A stretch of DNA of 64,000 nucleotides from Aquisphaera giovannonii (GTDB taxonomy: Bacteria; Planctomycetota; Planctomycetia; Isosphaerales; Isosphaeraceae). Of the stretch, positions 25,773-39,577 are shown piece by piece. A program made the position numbers and the translations under genes. The stretch lies in the NCBI RefSeq assembly GCF_008087625.1, contig NZ_CP042997.1, positions 7,564,001-7,628,000 of the forward strand. Reading direction: 5' to 3'. The notes below the pieces were generated by a model. It was not told where the DNA came from. It searched no databases and saw nothing but the letters and a program-made list of their open reading frames with translations. Position 1 is the first letter of the stretch. Each line of letters starts with the position of its first letter.

Positions 25773-27335
25773 ATGAATCGCGACGAGATGATGGCGAAGC
25801 TCTCGGACCGATCCATAACGTGGGACGTGGTCGTCATCGGCGGCGGCGCGACCGGAATCGGTGTCGCCGTCGATGCGGCGGCACGCGGCTACCGGACCGC
25901 GCTGCTCGAGCGGTCGGACTTCGGCAAGGGCACGTCCAGCCGCTCGACGAAGCTCGTGCACGGAGGCGTCCGGTATTTGCAGCAGGGGAACGTCAGCCTC
26001 GTGATCGAGGCCCTCCGCGAGCGGGGGCTCCTGATGAAGCTGGCGCCGCACCTCGTCGGCAACCTGCGGTTCGTCGTGCCGAATTACGCGTGGTGGGAGG
26101 CCCCCTTCTACGGCATCGGGATGAAGGTGTACGACCTGCTGGCGGGTCGGTACGGCTTCGGGCCGTCCAAGGTCCTCTCGAGGGAACAGACCCTGGCCCT
26201 CCTGCCGACGATCCGGACCGACGGGCTGCGCGGGGGCGTCCAGTATTTCGACGGCCTGTTCGACGACTCGCGACTGCTCATCAACCTGGCCCAGACCGCC
26301 TTCGAGCATGGCGCCACGGTGGCGAACTACGTCCGCGTCGATCGGCTGCTGAAGGACGCCGAGGGCCTGATCAGGGGCGTCGTGGCGCAGGACCTGGAGG
26401 CCGGGGCGGAGCTCGAGCTGTCGGCCCGCGTCGTCGTAAACGCCACGGGCCCCTTCGCGGACGCGCTGCGGCGAGCGGATGATCCTTCCCTCGGGCCGAT
26501 CATCGCGCCCAGCCAGGGCGCCCATGTCGTTCTCCCGAAGGAGTTCCTGCCCGGCGACTCGGCGATCATGGTCCCGCACACCGCCGACGGCCGCGTCATG
26601 TTCGCGATCCCCTGGCACGGCCACGTCGTCGTGGGGACGACGGACGTGCCGATCGACCACGTCCCCGTCGATCCGGCCCCGATGTCAGACGAGGTCGACT
26701 TCATCCTGGAGACTGCGGCCGGATACCTCGCCAGGCCGGCGACGCGGGCCGACGTGCGGAGCGCCTTCGCGGGCATCCGGCCGCTCGTCCGCGCCGGGGA
26801 GGGGACGAGCACCGCGGCCCTGTCCCGGGACCACCACCTCGAGATCGCGCCGTCGGGCCTGGTCACCATCTGCGGCGGCAAGTGGACCACCTACCGCCAC
26901 ATGGCGGAGGATACGGTCGATCAGGCGGCCATCGTCGGCGGCCTGCCCGAACGTCCCTGCCCGACCCGCGAGCTCTTCATTCACGGCTCCGCCGAGACGC
27001 TACTCGGCGAGGATCCGCTGTCGGTCTACGGCTCGGACGCGATCGCCATCCGGTCGCTGGCCCGCTCCTCGGGGCGCCTGGCCGGCCAACTCCACCCCGA
27101 TCTGCCGATCGTCGCCGCGCAGGTCGCCTGGGCGGCCCAGCAGGAGATGGCCCGGACCGTCGAGGACGTCCTCTGCCGCCGCACCCGCGCGGCGTTCCTG
27201 AACGCCCCGGCCGCGCTCGCCATGGCGGCCGACGTCGCCTCGATCCTGGCCGCGGAACTTGGCCGGGATGATGCCTGGGCCGCGTCGCAGGTCGAGGCAT
27301 TCCGGCCGATCGGCGAATCCTTCGTCGCCTCGTGA
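25773..27335 (+). CDS. glpD: Aerobic glycerol-3-phosphate dehydrogenase
   Basis: 520 residues. FAD-dependent, membrane-associated enzyme oxidising glycerol 3-phosphate to dihydroxyacetone phosphate and reducing quinone. FAD motif VVIGGGATGIGVAVDAAARGY (first 20 residues of it), then TSSRSTKLVHGGVRYL, AGIRPLVR and GGKWTTYRHMAE, all family signatures. It forms an operon with glpK. Its stop lies 13 bases from that of the convergent propeller gene. Confidence 0.96.
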   Translation: MNRDEMMAKLSDRSITWDVVVIGGGATGIGVAVDAAARGYRTALLERSDFGKGTSSRSTKLVHGGVRYLQQGNVSLVIEALRERGLLMKLAPHLVGNLRFVVPNYAWWEAPFYGIGMKVYDLLAGRYGFGPSKVLSREQTLALLPTIRTDGLRGGVQYFDGLFDDSRLLINLAQTAFEHGATVANYVRVDRLLKDAEGLIRGVVAQDLEAGAELELSARVVVNATGPFADALRRADDPSLGPIIAPSQGAHVVLPKEFLPGDSAIMVPHTADGRVMFAIPWHGHVVVGTTDVPIDHVPVDPAPMSDEVDFILETAAGYLARPATRADVRSAFAGIRPLVRAGEGTSTAALSRDHHLEIAPSGLVTICGGKWTTYRHMAEDTVDQAAIVGGLPERPCPTRELFIHGSAETLLGEDPLSVYGSDAIAIRSLARSSGRLAGQLHPDLPIVAAQVAWAAQQEMARTVEDVLCRRTRAAFLNAPAALAMAADVASILAAELGRDDAWAASQVEAFRPIGESFVAS

Positions 27336-31066: not shown

Positions 31067-32956
31067 TCATCGGGCGCCCGCGCCGACGGCCGACTCGATG
31101 ATGCCGCGATAGTGCGAGAGGCCCGGGACGTCGAGCCCCGGCACCTTCGCCGTGTCGTCCCATCGTCGCAGCCGGATCGCGTCTCGGTGGTGCGGGTTGG
31201 CCTCGAACTCGGCGACCCCCTCGGCGTCGAAGGGGCCGCCCTGGAGCGTGAGGCTCTGGCGGGAGGCCTCGGAGAGGCTGCCGGCGTAGGCCGGGTCCAC
31301 CGCGCACAGGTACCGCTTGGCCGCGACGTGCAGCCGGATCGGCTCGATCACCGACAGGCCGAAGGCCTCGGACAGCCACGCGGGGCCGGTCTCCTCGTGC
31401 CGGCCGTCGATGCCGCGGTCGGCGAGGTCCTCGTCGTGACCTGCCACGAGATGGCCGATGTCGTGCAGCAGCGCGGCGACGATGAGCTCCGCGCTCGCCC
31501 CTTCCCGCTCGGCCAGGTGCGCCGATTGGAGGGCGTGCTCGGACTGGGTCACGTCCTCCCCGAAGTAGGCCGAGTCGCCCCGGTCGGTGAAGATCCGTTC
31601 GATCCGCTCGTAGAGGGAGGGCATCTCGTGATTCATGTCTACTGCCGTGTCCTCGGTCCGGAGTTCGGCCCTTCGCTGGGCCAGGAGATAGATCATCGCG
31701 ACGGCCGCCGAGGCCCACGCCACGACGGCCAGGGCCAGGAACACGCCCCGCCATCCGAAGTCGATCGAGGTGCGCGCCAGGCCCCACCCCGCGAGCGCCC
31801 CGCCGAGGTAGCCCGCCGCATCCACGAACCCGGACGCCGTGGCCCCGCCGTGCTTGCCCCCGAGGTCCAGCGAGATGGCGCCGGCCAGGTAGGAATAGGG
31901 CCCCAGCAGGCAGAAGGCGACGGCCGCGACCAGCGCGATCGGTATCCGCTGCGATCGGCCGAAGTCGCCCATCCCCAGAGCCAGCAGGCCCAGGCCGGCG
32001 AGGGACAGGCCGGCGAGGATGACCGCCCCGCGGCCCGCCCGGCCCAGCCTGTCGCCCAGGTACCCGGCCAGCAGCACCGAGATCCCGCCGAAGAGCGGGA
32101 AGAGCGAGCTGGCCCTGGCGGCGTCGGCCCTCGACAGCCCGAGCGACTCCGCGAAGTACGTCGGCGACCAGGCGTTGAACGACTCCCGGAGGAGCGTCAG
32201 GCCCAGCGAAAGGCCGCAGACCAGCCAGAAGCTCGGGCTCCGCAGGAGCGGGACCAGGAGCTTCCGGAGCCCGCTCGCCCTGGGCCGGTCCCCCCCCTTC
32301 CCGTAGACCGAGGCGTCGCCCGCGTCCGGCTCCGGCAGGCCCAGCTCGGCGGGCGATTCCCGCAGCCAGAGGCCGTTGATCACCAGCAGGCCGGAGAGGA
32401 TCCCCGCCGACGCCAGGAAGATGCCCCTCCACCCGAAGCCGAGGTCGATGAGCCGGCCCATCGCCAGCCTCGCCGCGGCGTCGCCGAAGAGGAAGCTCAG
32501 GCTCAGGAGCCCCATCGCCGTGCCGTACCGCGAGGGGGGGAACCAGCGGGAGACGACCTTGATCGCCCCCGCCCATCCGAAGGACTGCACGAGGCGATTC
32601 CCCGCCCAGATGGCCGTGAAGGCCGGCAGGGTCCCCGACATCGCGAAGGCGACCGTGCAGGCGATCGAGCCGGCCATGCCCCCCAGGAACCCGGCCCGCC
32701 CGCCGAAGAAGTCCGCGAGCGGCCCGGCGAAGGGCTTGCCGAGCGCGTAGGCGAGGATGCCCAGCGAGATCGCCGCCCCCAGGCCGAGCTTCGCCGCCTC
32801 GGCCGAGACGCCCGCCGCCCCGAGGTCCTGGATGATCATCGTCTGCGCGACCGACAGGTTCGACCGGCAGGCGTAGTAGCCCGTGTACCCGGCGATCAAC
32901 AGGCCGAGCGTCAGCGAGCGTCGGATCGTGAGACTCGGAGTGCCGTCCAATCCCAT
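31067..32956 (-). CDS. MFS transporter fused to PhnZ-type HD-domain oxygenase
   Basis: 629 residues. Residues 1-430 form a 12-helix MFS transporter with an N-terminus (TGYYACRSNLSVAQ) like organophosphate:phosphate antiporters. From residue 441, which is a Met, the rest matches PhnZ, the mixed-valent di-iron oxygenase that cleaves 2-amino-1-hydroxyethylphosphonate to glycine and phosphate. Numbered from that Met, Tyr24 and Glu27 (YFGE), His34, His58-Asp59 (LLHDIGH) and His80 fall at the positions I recall for PhnZ. His103, Lys107 and Asp160/161 are within one residue. The linker is about 13 residues; in another frame the same bases read TAG, then TGA just before the PhnZ part. It starts 7 bases after the phosphatase-family gene, with AGGGGA just upstream. 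No PhnY hydroxylase gene is in the window. Confidence 0.85.
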   Translation of the reverse strand: MGLDGTPSLTIRRSLTLGLLIAGYTGYYACRSNLSVAQTMIIQDLGAAGVSAEAAKLGLGAAISLGILAYALGKPFAGPLADFFGGRAGFLGGMAGSIACTVAFAMSGTLPAFTAIWAGNRLVQSFGWAGAIKVVSRWFPPSRYGTAMGLLSLSFLFGDAAARLAMGRLIDLGFGWRGIFLASAGILSGLLVINGLWLRESPAELGLPEPDAGDASVYGKGGDRPRASGLRKLLVPLLRSPSFWLVCGLSLGLTLLRESFNAWSPTYFAESLGLSRADAARASSLFPLFGGISVLLAGYLGDRLGRAGRGAVILAGLSLAGLGLLALGMGDFGRSQRIPIALVAAVAFCLLGPYSYLAGAISLDLGGKHGGATASGFVDAAGYLGGALAGWGLARTSIDFGWRGVFLALAVVAWASAAVAMIYLLAQRRAELRTEDTAVDMNHEMPSLYERIERIFTDRGDSAYFGEDVTQSEHALQSAHLAEREGASAELIVAALLHDIGHLVAGHDEDLADRGIDGRHEETGPAWLSEAFGLSVIEPIRLHVAAKRYLCAVDPAYAGSLSEASRQSLTLQGGPFDAEGVAEFEANPHHRDAIRLRRWDDTAKVPGLDVPGLSHYRGIIESAVGAGAR

Positions 32957-32963
32957 CGTCCCC

Positions 32964-33890
32964 TCAGCGTGCAGCGGCCGTCGGCGTGGACGCGGCGAAC
33001 GCCGCCCGGACCGGCCGGGCGATCCAGCATTCCGGCGGGTTGATGCCGAGGACCGCGGCGACGGTGGCCGCCGTGTCGAACGTGTTCACGGGCGACCCGA
33101 TCTCCTTGCCCCGGGCGACGCCGGGGCCGGCCACGATCCAGGGGATCTCCAGCTCGCCCATCGTGTTGCCGCCGTGCCCCTTCCCCTTGCCGCCGTGGTC
33201 CGCGGTGATCAGGACCAGCGTGTCCCCGGCCATCCCCGCCCGCTCCAGCGCCCGGAGCACCTCGCCGATCAGGCGGTCCGCCTCCGCGACCGCCGCGTAA
33301 TACTGCGGCGTGCCGTGCCCGTCGTGATGCCCCGCGTGATCGACGTGATCCAGGTGGATGAAGGTGAGCGTCGGCTTCTCCTTCATGATGTACTCCACGG
33401 CCTTCTCGACGGTGGCCTGAGGCCCCTTCGGATTGAGGACGACGTCCGCGACGCCGGGCTCGACCAGCCGGGCGAAGCCGTCCCAGTCGTGGAAGATGCC
33501 GATCTTCGACTTCGGCCTCTGCTCGCGGAGGATGCCGAAGACCGTCGGGAATCCCCCATGGGCCTGGGCCGTCGGCGTGATCGACGACTTGCCGGGCTGC
33601 CATTCGTTCGAGAGCACCCCGTGCTGCTCCGGCCCGGCCCCCATGATCATGGACGCCCAGTTCGGGCTGCTGACCGTCGGCATGACCCCTCGAGCGTGGA
33701 AGCTCCACGCCCCCTCCCGCTTCAGCCGGTCGACGACGGGGACCTTCGCCTTGAGGAGGCCGTCCGGGCTGAGGCCGTCCACGCCGATGATCACCACATG
33801 CCCGGCGCGGGGGACGACCGCTTCCTCGCCCCCGCGGACGGGCATGACCATGAGTCCAACCACGGTCGCAATCCAGGCCAATCGACTCAT
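32964..33890 (-). CDS. Secreted alkaline-phosphatase-superfamily hydrolase (nucleotide pyrophosphatase/phosphodiesterase type)
   Basis: 308 residues with a signal peptide (LAWIATVVGLMVMPVRG). Metal-binding start VVIIGVDGLSPDGL. A PTVSSPNWASMIMGAGPEQHG segment (17 of it: PTVSSPNWASMIMGAGP) places a Ser or Thr nucleophile as in nucleotide pyrophosphatases and phosphonoacetate hydrolases. HLDHVDHAGHHDG supplies Asp and His ligands, and ITADHGG another Asp-His pair. It should act outside the cytoplasm on phosphate esters or phosphonates. First gene of an operon with the MFS-PhnZ fusion; GAGGGGG precedes the ATG. Confidence 0.87.
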   Translation of the reverse strand: MSRLAWIATVVGLMVMPVRGGEEAVVPRAGHVVIIGVDGLSPDGLLKAKVPVVDRLKREGAWSFHARGVMPTVSSPNWASMIMGAGPEQHGVLSNEWQPGKSSITPTAQAHGGFPTVFGILREQRPKSKIGIFHDWDGFARLVEPGVADVVLNPKGPQATVEKAVEYIMKEKPTLTFIHLDHVDHAGHHDGHGTPQYYAAVAEADRLIGEVLRALERAGMAGDTLVLITADHGGKGKGHGGNTMGELEIPWIVAGPGVARGKEIGSPVNTFDTAATVAAVLGINPPECWIARPVRAAFAASTPTAAAR

Positions 33891-34258: not shown

Positions 34259-35374
34259 ATGCCGCCCGAATCGCTGCCGAGATATGTCGAGATTGCGCGG
34301 GCGATCGAGGCGAGCGTCTCCGCGAAACCGCCGGGAGATGCCAGGCTGCCGAGCTCCAGGGAGATTGCCCGCGAACACGGGGTCTCTCCGGTCACGGCCT
34401 CGCGGGCGATCCAGGTCCTCCGCGACAAGGGGCTGATCCGGACGATCGACCGGTCGGGCAGCTACGCGACGCCGAGGGCCCAGGCCGCGGCGGCCGACTG
34501 CTGGGCGCTCGTCCTGAGGAACACGCCGGGACCGTGGTGGCATGCGAGCCACTCGTTCGCCCTCTCGGCGTTCGAATCGGCGGCCCACGCCGAGGGGTCT
34601 CGATTCGACCCGGACTGCTTCGACCTGGACGGCCCCGCCGCCCGCGAGTCGCATTTCCGCCGCCAGGCGAGGGAGGCCGTCGCCTCGGGAATCCGGGGAG
34701 TCTTCCTCATGCCCTCCCGGGCCAGCGACAAGGAGGCGGCCCGCGACGAGGCGCTGTTGCACGCCTGCCTCGAGTCGGGCCTGCCGGTGGTCCTGATCGA
34801 GCGGAACGTCCGGGGCGCCGGGCGTCGGCTCGAACACGACCTCGCCGCGGCCGATGACTTCGACGGCGGCCTGCGCTGCACGGAGCATCTCCTGGAGATC
34901 GGACGGCGGCGCATCGCCTTCATGGCCGGCTCGCCCACGAGCAGCCACGAGGGGCGGCTCGCGGGGTATCTCGCGGCGCTGGGGCGGGCCCAGATCGCGC
35001 TCCGCCCGCTCATCCTGGAGCAGCAGTCCGATCCCGACCCCCGCGACGCCTGCCGACGCCTCGCCGACCAGGTGCTCCGGCAGAAGGCGGACGCGGTGGT
35101 CTGCTACCAGGACTACGCCGCCCTGTCCCTCATCGTGGAGCTGCTCGCCCGCGGGGTCCGGGTGCCGGCCGACGTCGCGATCACGGGCTTCGACAACCTG
35201 CCCATCGGGGAGGCCTTCGCGATCGGCCTGACGACCTATGCTTTCCCGATGGAGGCGATCGCGTCCCAGGCCATCCGGGTCATGCGGTGGCGACTGACTT
35301 CGCCGAGCGGCCCGCCGGTCAAGGTCCTGGTCCAGGGCGAATTGCTCGTCCGGCAGAGCACGGTCCCCGCCTGA
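34259..35374 (+). CDS. GntR-HTH / LacI-sensor transcriptional regulator (AraR-like)
   Basis: 371 residues. Residues 1-75 form a GntR winged helix (LPSSREIAREHGVSPVTASR, then LRDKGLIRTIDRSGSY). Residues about 80-370 are a periplasmic-binding-protein-like sensor of the LacI/GalR type (GGLRCTEHLLEIGRRRIAFM, then DVAITGFDNLPIGEAF). Sugar or another small ligand likely. It is divergent from the phosphatase/MFS-PhnZ operon and 122 bases upstream of the GH32 gene, so either could be its target. AraR of Bacillus is the best known protein with this build. Confidence 0.92.
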   Translation: MPPESLPRYVEIARAIEASVSAKPPGDARLPSSREIAREHGVSPVTASRAIQVLRDKGLIRTIDRSGSYATPRAQAAAADCWALVLRNTPGPWWHASHSFALSAFESAAHAEGSRFDPDCFDLDGPAARESHFRRQAREAVASGIRGVFLMPSRASDKEAARDEALLHACLESGLPVVLIERNVRGAGRRLEHDLAAADDFDGGLRCTEHLLEIGRRRIAFMAGSPTSSHEGRLAGYLAALGRAQIALRPLILEQQSDPDPRDACRRLADQVLRQKADAVVCYQDYAALSLIVELLARGVRVPADVAITGFDNLPIGEAFAIGLTTYAFPMEAIASQAIRVMRWRLTSPSGPPVKVLVQGELLVRQSTVPA

Positions 35375-35496
35375 CGGGGCCCGCTTCGACGACGGATGCC
35401 CCGGGCCCTCGACTTCTGGCTGCCCCCTCGCCCGAGCGGCCGCGTGGCAGTAAGATCGCGGCGCTGCAGAACCATTCGACCGCGAGTCCAAAGCCC

Positions 35497-37695
35497 ATGC
35501 GCACCGCCATCCTCCTCTGCCCCCTACTCGCCCTCCCGGCCCCGAGCGGGCAGCAGGCCGCCGGGCCGTCTCCGCCGGCCCCGGTCGATCCGGTTTTCCG
35601 GTCCGCGATCGCCGCCTGGCAGATGGGCGATGCGCGATCGCTGGCCGGCGACGACGCGCTCCGCATCGCAGGCGATGCTGGCATCGGGGTGACGCTGGAC
35701 GGGGATGACCTACGCGCCTCGCTCGAGGGCGGCAACGACGGCCGCGTCGCCCGGCTGGACGGCGGCTATCTCGACGCCGGCCAGGGCGCCGGCGGGAGGC
35801 TCAACCCGTCCGGCCGGTCCCTCACGGTCAGCGTCCGCCTGCGATGCCCATCGGGGGCCTGGGACGGCCCGATCTTCAGCAAGCACGGCGGGCACGACCG
35901 GCTGGTCTACAACGTCTACTCGAGCCGCTCGCACGTCGGATTCGAGCTGGGGCTGCGGGACCGGCCGGGGATGACTTCGGTGCTGGTGCCGCTGGATCGA
36001 ATCGGGGAGAAGGACTGGCACGACGTCGTCGGACGCTACGACGGCAAGGCCGTGCAGGTCTTCGTCGACGGCGTGCTCATGGACGAGGCCCCGGCGGAGG
36101 GCCCCATCCGCGAGGGCAACGCGGCGCCTTGCCTCATCGGCGGCGAGCCGTCCGGCGGCGGCGTGAAGACGGGCTGGAAGGGGCTCATCGATCACGTCGC
36201 CATCTGGGACCGGGCCCTGCCGGCGGCCGACATCGAGCGGCTGGCCGGCGGTGCGGCGTCGGTCGCCGCCCGGAGAAAGCGGTACACCCAGGTCGTCCAG
36301 CTGCCTCCGGCCCCCGACCTCTACCGGGAGACGCTGCGTCCGCAGTTCCATTTCACGGCCCGGCAATGGGGCGTCCGCAAGCTCAACCCCGGGATGCGCG
36401 AGGAGGGCTGGCTCAACGACGTCAACGGGCTGATCCACTTGGACGGCGAGTATCACCTCATGGCCCAGCGCTGGGCCCGCTGCTGGATCCACGCGGTGAG
36501 CAAGGACCTGATCCACTGGACGGAGCTCCAGCCGGCCTTCTGGGACGACAGGCGGTACGGGACTGGGGTGCAGTCCGGCACGGCCGTCCTCGACGCGAGG
36601 AACGTCTCGAAGCTCTCGCCGGACGACCGGACGCCCCCGCTGGTCGCCTTCTGGTCCGGCTTCGACAACCACAGCCAGTGCATCTCGTACAGCCTGGACC
36701 GCGGCCGGACCTGGGCGAAGTACGCCGGGAATCCCATCTTCCACCACCCCGAGCGCGACCCGAAGGTATTCTGGCACGAGCCGACGCGACGCTGGGTCAT
36801 GGTCCTGTCGTGCGTCAACAGCTACCTCTTCTTCACCTCGGAGAACCTCCTCGACTGGCACGAGGAGAAGGATCCGATCCCCGACTGCTTCGAATGCCCG
36901 GACTTCTTCTCCCTCCCGCTCGACGGCGACCCCTCGAGGCCGAAGTGGGTGCTGATCCGGGGCAACGGCAGCTACTCCGTCGGCGAGTTCGACGGACGGT
37001 CCTTCCGCGCCCAGACGCCGGTACGCCCGGGCGACCACGGGCCCAACTTCTATGCGACCGGGTCGTGGGGGGACATCGCCGGCCAGCCCGGCCGCCGCGT
37101 CCAGATCGCCTGGATGCGAGGCGGGTCCTATCCCGAGATGCCCTTCAACCAGCAGATGTCCTTCCCGTGCGACCTGAGCCTGCGCACCGTCGACGGCTCG
37201 CCGAGGATGTACCGGAGGCCGGCGCCGGAAATCGCCACGCTCCACGGCAAGGAGCATGCCGTCGGCGACCTCGAGCTCGCCCCCGGACAGTCGCGTCCCT
37301 TGCCGCAGCCTCGCGACGGCTTCCGGCTCCTGGCCGAGGTGGAATGCGGCGAGGGCGCCACGCTGACCTTCACCCTTCGAGGCACCAAGGTCGTCATCGA
37401 CGGCAAGACCATCGTCAGCCGGTGCGAGCCCGTCGCCGCCTCCGGGAGCGTGAGGACGGTGGAGATCCTCGTGGATCGCGCCTCGATCGAGACGTTCGCC
37501 AACGACGGCGAGGTCTCGATCTCGGCCTGCTTCCTGCCGACGGACGATCGCCTCGCGGTGGGGTCGTCCGGGGGGCCCGCTCGCGTCCGATCCCTCAGGA
37601 TCATCGAACTGGAGTCGGCCTGGCCTACGAGAGTCGATGGACCGGGACCGGCCGCCCGGGCCGGAAGCTCCGCACGTCGCGGACTTCCAGGCTGA
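35497..37695 (+). CDS. Secreted GH32 beta-fructosidase with N-terminal concanavalin-like domain
   Basis: 732 residues with a short signal peptide. Residues about 35-260 form a LamG/pentraxin-like domain (SVRLRCPSGAWDGPIFSKHG; IDHVAIWDRALPAADIERL). The GH32 five-blade propeller follows: nucleophile Asp308 in WLNDVNGL (usually WMNDPNG), Asp421 in RDPKVF, and acid/base Glu466 in FECPDFF. A C-terminal beta-sandwich ends with EILVDRASIETFANDGEVSIS. Hydrolyses sucrose, inulin or levan; which one is undecided. The last 71 bases overlap the convergent CobW-type gene. Confidence 0.92.
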   Translation: MRTAILLCPLLALPAPSGQQAAGPSPPAPVDPVFRSAIAAWQMGDARSLAGDDALRIAGDAGIGVTLDGDDLRASLEGGNDGRVARLDGGYLDAGQGAGGRLNPSGRSLTVSVRLRCPSGAWDGPIFSKHGGHDRLVYNVYSSRSHVGFELGLRDRPGMTSVLVPLDRIGEKDWHDVVGRYDGKAVQVFVDGVLMDEAPAEGPIREGNAAPCLIGGEPSGGGVKTGWKGLIDHVAIWDRALPAADIERLAGGAASVAARRKRYTQVVQLPPAPDLYRETLRPQFHFTARQWGVRKLNPGMREEGWLNDVNGLIHLDGEYHLMAQRWARCWIHAVSKDLIHWTELQPAFWDDRRYGTGVQSGTAVLDARNVSKLSPDDRTPPLVAFWSGFDNHSQCISYSLDRGRTWAKYAGNPIFHHPERDPKVFWHEPTRRWVMVLSCVNSYLFFTSENLLDWHEEKDPIPDCFECPDFFSLPLDGDPSRPKWVLIRGNGSYSVGEFDGRSFRAQTPVRPGDHGPNFYATGSWGDIAGQPGRRVQIAWMRGGSYPEMPFNQQMSFPCDLSLRTVDGSPRMYRRPAPEIATLHGKEHAVGDLELAPGQSRPLPQPRDGFRLLAEVECGEGATLTFTLRGTKVVIDGKTIVSRCEPVAASGSVRTVEILVDRASIETFANDGEVSISACFLPTDDRLAVGSSGGPARVRSLRIIELESAWPTRVDGPGPAARAGSSARRGLPG

Positions 37696-38722: not shown

Positions 38723-38899
38723 GGAGAGTTCCCCTTGCTGTGTTTCGGTTTCGAGCCGCTCAAAGGCTAATCGCGGGCGCCGCGCCCCGCAAGTACCGGC
38801 GGGCAGTTGCCCGGTCCGCGATCCGGCGATACGCTGGCCGGACTCCGGGCCCACCGCGGTCGTGCCGGGCCCCCAACCTCCCCGAGCGTCGGAGCGGCT

Positions 38900-39577
38900 A
38901 TGCGCCGGAAGTCCATCGCCGAGCTGGTGGCGACCTTCATCCTCGTCTTCGCCGGGACGGGGGCCATCGTGGTGAACCAGGAGCAGGGAGGAGCGGTCAC
39001 GCACGTGGGCATCAGCCTGGTGTTCGGCCTCGTCGTCCTCGCCATGATCTACGCGGTCGGGGACATCTCTGGCGCCCACATCAACCCGGCGGTCTCTATC
39101 GCCTTCGCCGCTTCGGGGAGGTTCCCGGCCCGGGCCCTGCCCCCGTACCTGCTCTGCCAGGTCGCGGGGGCCCTCGCGGCGAGCCTGCTCCTGAGGGGCC
39201 TCTTCCCGTCCAACGACACGCTCGGCGCGACGCTGCCGGCCGGGGCGGTCTGGCAGTCGTTCGTCTTCGAGCTGGTGCTCACGTTCATCCTGATGTTCGT
39301 GGTCCTGCGCGTCTCGTCGGGGGCGAAGGAGAAGGGCATCACGGCGGGGATCGCCGTCGGCGCCGTGATCGCGCTGGAGGCCCTCTTCGGCGGGCCGGTC
39401 TGCGGCGCCTCGATGAACCCGGCCCGCTCGCTGGCGCCGGCCGTCGTGAGCGGGCACACGGAGCACCTCTGGGCGTACCTGGCGGCCCCGACGCTCGGGG
39501 CGCTGCTCGCCGTCGCGTTCGACAAGCTCCTGGAGCAGCAGCCGGCGACCGGCGTCAGCCCCGGAAGCGCCTCATGA
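38900..39577 (+). CDS. Aquaporin / MIP-family channel
   Basis: 225 residues, six membrane helices. The two NPA half-helices are HINPAVS and SMNPARS, and the start SIAELVATFILVFAGTGAI is typical. Similarity in style to NIP/glycerol-permeable members is possible but not decided; water or small neutral solutes such as glycerol may pass. GGAG sits 6 bases before the ATG. The end overlaps the convergent KAS II gene by 23 bases. Confidence 0.93.
   Translation: MRRKSIAELVATFILVFAGTGAIVVNQEQGGAVTHVGISLVFGLVVLAMIYAVGDISGAHINPAVSIAFAASGRFPARALPPYLLCQVAGALAASLLLRGLFPSNDTLGATLPAGAVWQSFVFELVLTFILMFVVLRVSSGAKEKGITAGIAVGAVIALEALFGGPVCGASMNPARSLAPAVVSGHTEHLWAYLAAPTLGALLAVAFDKLLEQQPATGVSPGSAS

Follow-up and report, generated by a model that had tools for sequence, protein, structure and literature searches.

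Organization of the locus

We analyzed a window of 64,000 nucleotides from the planctomycete Aquisphaera giovannonii (contig NZ_CP042997.1, positions 7,564,001 to 7,628,000), focusing on a gene in which a permease of the major facilitator superfamily (MFS), resembling the organophosphate:phosphate antiporter (OPA) family, is joined to a PhnZ-type HD-domain oxygenase. The gene starts with ATG and encodes 629 residues without an internal stop. Its GC content by codon position, a pattern used to tell real genes, was 0.69/0.53/0.95. The following features are needed first.

31067-32956, reverse strand: fusion gene, OPA-type MFS permease plus PhnZ-type HD oxygenase, a single frame of 629 residues
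31667-32956, reverse strand: MFS permease part, residues 1-430 (MFS about 13-430), from profile matches, GlpT positions and the structural model
31616-31666, reverse strand: joint of 17 residues (431-447), of equal length but diverged sequence in a congener
31633-31636, reverse strand: ATGA, in which a TGA of the +1 frame overlaps the Met441 codon, read from the sequence
31088-31618, reverse strand: PhnZ-type HD-domain diiron oxygenase part, residues 447-623, from profile, motif and fold
31067-31070, reverse strand: ATGA at the fusion stop; the same ATGA starts pbfD in the congener, and pbfD is absent here
32964-33890, reverse strand: PF01663 phosphodiesterase-like protein of 308 residues, 7 nt upstream of the fusion

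The fusion is one polypeptide with a permease fold and an intact oxygenase motif, both parts of which are under constraint. Pfam MFS_1 matched residues 22-389 (133.7 bits, cut-off 33.4) and Pfam HD residues 473-543 (27.1 bits, cut-off 22). An AlphaFold2 model built on an alignment of 41 sequences, the window protein and those of fetched loci, had a mean predicted local distance difference test (pLDDT) score of 92.9 and a predicted template modeling score of 0.77. Seven residues scored below 50, and residues 441-443 were the only run of three to do so. An initial reading of the DNA letters, the sequence-only reading, had described an OPA-like MFS transporter joined to a complete PhnZ domain, and profile matches, motif residues and fold all agree with that description.

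The oxygenase half

The NCBIfam model TIGR03276, 'phosphonate degradation HD-domain oxygenase', matched residues 449-622 at 230.1 bits, passing its cut-off of 214.6. A phmmer alignment to PhnZ, in which Met441 corresponds to PhnZ residue 1, placed Y464/E467, H474, H498-D499, H502 and H520 exactly at PhnZ Y24/E27, H34, H58-D59, H62 and H80, whereas H543, K547, S565, R597 and D600 fall one residue early relative to PhnZ H104, K108, S126, R158 and D161. The alignment thus bears out the claim, first made from the letters, that the PhnZ part starts at a Met with the early motif residues in register and the later ligands shifted by one. The diiron ligands H...HD...H...H...D are complete (H474, H498-D499, H520, H543 and D600) and the YxxE substrate loop is kept as Y464xxE467. 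Beyond these, the conserved positions include residues that we take to be substrate contacts. The same diiron motif and YxxE loop have been described for PhnZ and TmpB (PMC8177086).

The nearest solved relatives of this half were TmpB, with 80 of 177 aligned residues identical, and PhnZ, with 68 of 163. Foldseek gave target-normalized TM-scores of up to 0.89 against 6npa and 4n71. Motif and profile together make it quite likely that the oxygenase half is catalytically active.

The permease half

In the model, the permease half has 12 predicted transmembrane helices if residues 285-329 are counted as two, the last one extending to residue 439. The nearest NCBIfam models were TIGR00881 (PgtP subfamily, 154.1 bits), UhpC (109.2 bits) and GlpT (74.8 bits); the score stayed under the cut-off of every OPA model, namely TIGR00881 (407.75 bits) and those for GlpT, UhpT, UhpC and PgtP. 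Identity to Escherichia coli GlpT was 86 of 428 aligned residues. Of 17 GlpT positions compared, ten have kept equivalents: Y38, Y42, R45, Y76, K80, G137, R269, G302, G386 and Y393. Three of these, R45, K80 and R269, are phosphate-site residues of GlpT and correspond to R31, K74 and R257 here.

The best Foldseek matches were human G6PT/SLC37A4, with GlpT (1pw4) ranking only 38th, after some non-OPA MFS proteins. VIA-align against 9w1r gave a Z score of 45.6 and a root mean square deviation of 2.5 over 381 aligned residues, in a list filled by the MFS part that is uninformative on the PhnZ part. A search of viral structures returned generic MFS proteins at the top. Membership of the OPA family is supported by the modeled MFS fold, which is close to that of OPA members.

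The fusion is shared with a second species

The window genome (G000) comprises 10.5 Mb in 3 contigs. Of the 45 family genomes searched, 40 gave at least one match at E <= 0.001, and a single match across both parts occurred in two only, G000 and a congener (G001) represented by a separate draft assembly of about 310 contigs. A search of genomes for the same fusion, suggested in the sequence-only reading, thus yielded a second case. G002, a third genus member (92% complete), had no match at the same threshold. Another early concern, close relatives with two genes at this place, applies outside the genus; within it, two of the three members carry the fusion and G002 lacks a match.

The G001 gene is a 629-residue frame, open from ATG to stop, and its product is 74% identical to the window protein. 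The ratio of nonsynonymous to synonymous divergence between the two (dN/dS, Nei-Gojobori) was 0.189/0.598 overall (about 0.32), 0.187/0.597 (0.31) for permease residues 1-425 and 0.150/0.565 (0.27) for oxygenase residues 450-629. Both genomes have the gene order phosphodiesterase-like, fusion, lipoprotein-like, DUF1559, hypothetical, and the two fused permease parts form one clade in a permease tree, with 100/100 support. The joint is equally long in both, with 17 residues separating the counterparts of residues 430 and 448; in nucleotides, it measures 42 nt up to residue 445 in the window and 51 nt up to the counterpart of residue 448 in G001.

These data bear on whether the frame might result from a sequencing or assembly slip, by which a one-base error merged two coupled genes. 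As the sequence-only reading had noted, the joint is short and carries TAG, then TGA, in another frame. This is the +1 frame, and its TGA shares bases with the Met441 codon (ATGA), where a separate PhnZ gene would start; overlapping permease/PhnZ junctions are also frequent in relatives (see below). However, two equivalent errors would be needed, because G001 has the same fused frame and an equal joint length with no stop; the window assembly, moreover, has no more than 3 contigs. Since the separate assembly of G001 shows the same frame, joint length and synteny, a slip is very unlikely, and we rejected it; the fusion is almost certainly genuine. Of the two early explanations, a recent gene fusion or a slip, the first stands, with 'recent' qualified because the fusion predates the divergence of the two species, between which the fused protein is 74% identical. 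The joint ATGA may be the relic of a former stop/start overlap; an A after ATG often arises by chance, so that it is weak evidence on its own.

A genuine fusion may still be functionally neutral, with free oxygenase produced through internal starts near residues 441/445 or by proteolysis and no channeling between the halves. Met codons are present near the former PhnZ start in the fusions of both species, the model is least certain at residues 441-443, the joint diverges fast (dN 0.74, dS 1.00 over 21 codons), and relatives encode the oxygenase in a gene of its own. Against this, the joint has the same length in two species and both halves are conserved in one frame. On balance we regard neutrality as doubtful, though worth keeping in mind.

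Distribution and origin of the fusion

Of 397 genomes of the class searched, 210 matched at E <= 1e-30. The matches listed reached down to about E 3e-52, so a fusion appearing as two separate weak matches could escape the listing. Among the matches listed, the permease part was present in 61 genomes. It was fused in two, and in 24 the adjoining gene, in the same orientation, encoded PhnZ; this is a lower bound, so that at least 24 genomes carry such pairs. In one further case (G004) PhnZ was cut by a contig end. A search of 392 genomes of the phylum, overlapping the class draw but without G001, gave 26 genomes with a match at E <= 1e-45, only G000 being fused. A scan of named genome contigs, possibly excluding the window's own records, found five loci, of which one was a planctomycete pair; no fusion was noted among them. 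None of the 29 matching records in a plasmid collection had one place covering 80% of the fusion query.

A few other long frames were found. That of G037 covers 338 residues around PhnZ and contains one TAA; those of G156 and G281 cover 598 and 555 residues around the permease, PhnZ being listed on another contig in both. A 386-residue frame around PhnZ in G559 was rejected as a fusion: it is PhnZ with an upstream extension that runs across a pbfD-like gene lying in a different frame.

Junctions were measured for 18 pairs (16 of the 24, G004 and a pair on a Hymenobacter plasmid), considering ATG starts only. Eleven have an overlap of 1-17 nt between an ATG and the MFS stop, one of them (L067) having another ATG 7 nt after the stop; in four there is a gap of 1-11 nt; and three (L036, L039 and L092) are wider or ambiguous. 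Overlaps or such narrow gaps thus make up 15 of the 18. A small indel at an overlapping or tight junction of this kind would fuse the two genes, and the ATGA in the window fits this route.

In the permease tree, which has some long branches and in which L047/L048 may be misplaced, the fused clade sits among permeases both with and without a PhnZ partner, and the 'pair' state needs seven changes. Because paired and solo permeases are mixed in this way, PhnZ neighbors appear to have been gained or lost repeatedly. The row nearest to the fused clade (L034, in G044) lies beside pbfD and phnX-like genes, with no PhnZ neighbor. A clade of same-kind OPA permeases (L040-L044, in G028-G032) has different conserved neighbors and no PhnZ beside them.

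Phosphonate genes around the fusion and its relatives

The protein encoded upstream of the fusion has an N terminus resembling a signal peptide by eye. Its best solved relatives are phosphodiesterase-nucleotide pyrophosphatases, at only 58 bits, and a homologue with 72% identity lies directly upstream of the fusion in G001. Downstream of the fusion in G001 are pbfD (TIGR03364, 391.6 bits), which overlaps the fusion stop as ATGA, and then a phnX-like gene (TIGR03351, 222.2 bits); both are missing at the corresponding spot in the window. We read this as a loss in the window lineage, with the ATGA at 31067-31070 as a possible scar, a gain in G001 being the alternative. No convincing remnant of either was found in the window. 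The only match below E 0.1, that of the G000 PbfD to a GlpD-like FAD protein at 25809-26240 (E 2e-7), was read as superfamily similarity and set aside.

Clusters of this type recur in relatives. pbfD and/or phnX were found by clustering of open reading frames near 12 of the 17 planctomycete pairs fetched; cluster members of three loci (L033, L036 and L059) were checked with profile models. The neighboring families included PbfD (TIGR03364), PhnX (TIGR01422) or PhnX-like (TIGR03351), PhnW (TIGR02326) and HpnZ (TIGR03366). The G054 row, for instance, comprises a TIGR03364 FAD oxidase, the permease, a TIGR03276 oxygenase, PhnX (342 bits), PhnW (556.6 bits) and an HpnZ alcohol dehydrogenase.

The permease and oxygenase genes also occur in an island of about 12 kb on a plasmid of Hymenobacter sp. 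NBH84 (NZ_CP043649.1, 27.9-40.3 kb; L092 and L095), together with SusC/SusD, a sulfatase-like protein, an alkaline-phosphatase-family protein, a TIGR03364 oxidase and a HAD hydrolase. The alkaline-phosphatase-family and sulfatase-like proteins share 70 of 257 and 39 of 134 residues, respectively, with the phosphodiesterase-like protein of the window. This looks like a phosphonate-ester utilization island in Bacteroidota. PhoX and a Na/Pi symporter are encoded nearby.

Elsewhere in G000, 4.8 Mb from the fusion, a PhnX gene (319.3 bits) adjoins a PbfD gene (419.9 bits; L087 7829-9792, on contig C1 at about 2.765 Mb); no transporter was recognized beside this pair among the neighbors, which were scanned in part. 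PhnW (482.6 bits) is encoded at another site. C-P lyase PhnJ had no match in G000 or G001.

We looked for a hydroxylase that might supply the oxygenase. TmpA belongs to the TauD family. Searches at E <= 0.001 with TauD (PF02668) returned no match in G000, one in G001 and none in G002, and searches with PhyH (PF05721) returned two in G000, both far from the fusion, one in G001 and none in G002. One of the G000 PhyH proteins was nearest to chlorinating-enzyme and ectoine-hydroxylase models, scoring 28.3 bits with the methylphosphonate hydroxylase model (cut-off 500); the other one and the G001 protein had no NCBIfam match at E <= 0.001. These two profiles thus revealed no PhnY/TmpA-type hydroxylase in G000, although an enzyme of another family is possible.

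Proposed function

GlpT-related AepP of Pseudomonas putida BIRD-1 is a 2-aminoethylphosphonate (AEP) permease needed for growth on AEP as a nitrogen source, and it shares the GlpT residues essential for phosphate binding but not those for the glycerol part (PMC8316502). Among known transporters AepP comes closest: like the permease half, it is a GlpT-related MFS protein of the OPA family whose gene is co-located with phosphonate-degradation genes. The likeness, drawn by description only, has a limit: AepP is encoded by a separate gene, with PhnWAY/PhnWX or putative catabolic enzymes, whereas the permease half is fused to a PhnZ-type oxygenase. Co-location of the AepP type was found here in that fusion itself and in the pbfD and phnX-like genes next in line in G001. 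Taken together, these features make it likely that this half is a phosphonate permease. By the fusion argument, the free permeases beside PhnZ, in at least 24 planctomycete genomes and on the Hymenobacter plasmid, are probably phosphonate importers as well.

We propose that the fusion arose from neighboring genes of a cluster for aminophosphonate degradation, one for an AepP-like permease and one for a TIGR03276 oxygenase. The upstream phosphodiesterase-like protein would be secreted and would act on esters, for instance phosphonolipids, to liberate their phosphonate head groups. The permease, with both termini presumably cytoplasmic as in other MFS proteins, would import an aminophosphonate, and the tethered cytoplasmic oxygenase, using Fe(II)/Fe(III) and O2, would split (R)-1-hydroxy-2-aminoethylphosphonate (R-HAEP) into phosphate and glycine. 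Joining the two would lock them in a 1:1 ratio and keep the enzyme at the membrane. Phosphate may be set free where the substrate comes in, as the sequence-only reading suggested. As no hydroxylase partner was recognized, R-HAEP would come from outside the cell, where the phosphodiesterase-like protein may release it. Imported AEP or N-methyl-AEP, unusable by the oxygenase, would pass to the unlinked PbfD-PhnX pair and PhnW. PbfD enzymes convert N-methyl-AEP and AEP to phosphonoacetaldehyde, the substrate of PhnX (PMC10590968), and PhnZ homologues, present in 15 of 1,186 phnWX and 24 of 75 phnWAY clusters, have been taken as a sign of separate R-HAEP processing (PMC8154272). We consider this overall working probable.

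A number of observations weigh against the proposal. TIGR03276 has the status 'hypoth_equivalog', and the oxygenase half scored 187.1 bits with the TmpB equivalog NF049941 and 184.1 bits with the hydroxymethylphosphonate (HMP) dioxygenase model NF052439, each under a cut-off of 300. Seven of the 17 GlpT positions are changed in the permease half (K46, N162, H165, Y266, E299, Y362 and G389). His165 has a functional role in GlpT; its equivalent here is Phe155, and Phe or Tyr occupies this position in all 13 non-GlpT rows, the query and G001 included. The window holds no other recognized phosphonate-degradation gene beside the fusion, and the permease is without a PhnZ neighbor in the other 34 class genomes among the matches listed. 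Neither pbfD nor phnX was found in the fetched stretch for five of the 17 pairs (L037, L038, L045, L046 and L047), two of which, L046 and L047, are cut by contig ends on the relevant side; four of these five are the pairs that, L062 aside, group nearest to the fused clade. Finally, the fusion need not be the sole phosphonate importer, because G000 encodes elsewhere, together, PhnE (264.2 bits), a PhnC-like ATPase (263.4 bits, cut-off 266.1) and a phosphonate-binding protein.

As to the substrate, we give R-HAEP about an even chance of being the main one. The oxygenase might instead cleave, and the permease carry, another hydroxyphosphonate, such as N-methylated HAEP, as in TmpB, or HMP. TmpB is the nearest solved relative, the PbfD enzymes accept N-methyl-AEP, as cited above, and R-HAEP and HMP are both substrates of a PhnZ from Gimesia (review PMC10574752). 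The sub-threshold TmpB and HMP scores point the other way, as TIGR03276 passes its own cut-off, and so do the lack of a TauD-family match in G000 and of a strong phosphonate hydroxylase match for the PhyH proteins. This alternative is in our view unlikely.

Alternatively, the MFS half might carry glycerol-3-phosphate or sugar phosphates, or serve as a sensor like UhpC, with an HD half that is not a phosphonate enzyme. Its best MFS models are indeed TIGR00881, UhpC and GlpT, and two genes in the wider window would suit such a role:

25773-27335, forward strand: GlpD-like FAD oxidoreductase
38807-39577, forward strand: MIP-family channel

However, none of the GlpT, UhpC, UhpT or PgtP cut-offs is reached, phosphonate genes recur beside the pairs in relatives and on the Hymenobacter plasmid, and no GlpD match was found in the 19-kb stretch surrounding the G001 fusion. 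We therefore hold a carrier or sensor of this kind to be highly improbable.

A bolder version of the proposal is that the protein is a self-fueled exchanger: phosphate released by the oxygenase at the inner mouth of an OPA antiporter would be the counter-ion pulling in the next aminophosphonate. We deem this quite improbable. If true, the system would scavenge carbon and nitrogen while giving phosphate back to the environment, with its import rate set directly by C-P cleavage.

Comparison with known systems

PhnZ (from HF130_AEPn_1) and TmpB (from Leisingera caerulea) have the same motifs and fold as the oxygenase half, but they are separate enzymes that act with a hydroxylase, PhnY* or TmpA, whereas the fused oxygenase is C-terminal to a permease in a genome with no such hydroxylase recognized. 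The planctomycete and Hymenobacter pairs comprise the same two proteins, in the same order and on one strand, but in two frames; in the window genus there is one frame and a phosphodiesterase-like gene directly upstream. In PhoF of the fungus Fonsecaea multimorphosa a PhnZ-type enzyme is fused to a pathway partner, as here, the partner being the hydroxylase PhnY rather than a transporter (review PMC10574752). In the glpT-glpQ operon of E. coli (NC_000913) an OPA permease gene lies beside a phosphodiesterase gene, as in the window. Unlike the window fusion, that operon is a glycerol-3-phosphate system with no oxygenase. GlpQ is periplasmic and, we assume, belongs to a phosphodiesterase family different from that of the PF01663 protein.

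Enzyme-transporter MFS fusions exist in other pathways. A permease-PhnZ fusion was not found in the open papers searched, so that it may be annotated elsewhere. AepP, PhnZ/TmpB and the clusters are known, and the kind of fusion is not new. By tying an OPA permease to a phosphonate oxygenase, the permease-PhnZ fusion makes uptake, C-P cleavage and their coupling measurable in one protein, and it bears on whether PhnZ in genomes without PhnY salvages ready-made hydroxy-aminoethylphosphonate.

Other genes

Two further genes of the window are divergent from the phosphodiesterase-fusion pair; neither had a match in the 19 kb around the G001 fusion:

34259-35374, forward strand: GntR/LacI-type regulator
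35287-37695, forward strand: GH32-type glycosidase

In the distant phylum member G559 (L096, 3356-5112), a pbfD-like gene directly precedes the PhnZ gene, and the other strand carries what appear by eye to be phosphonate ABC transporter genes.

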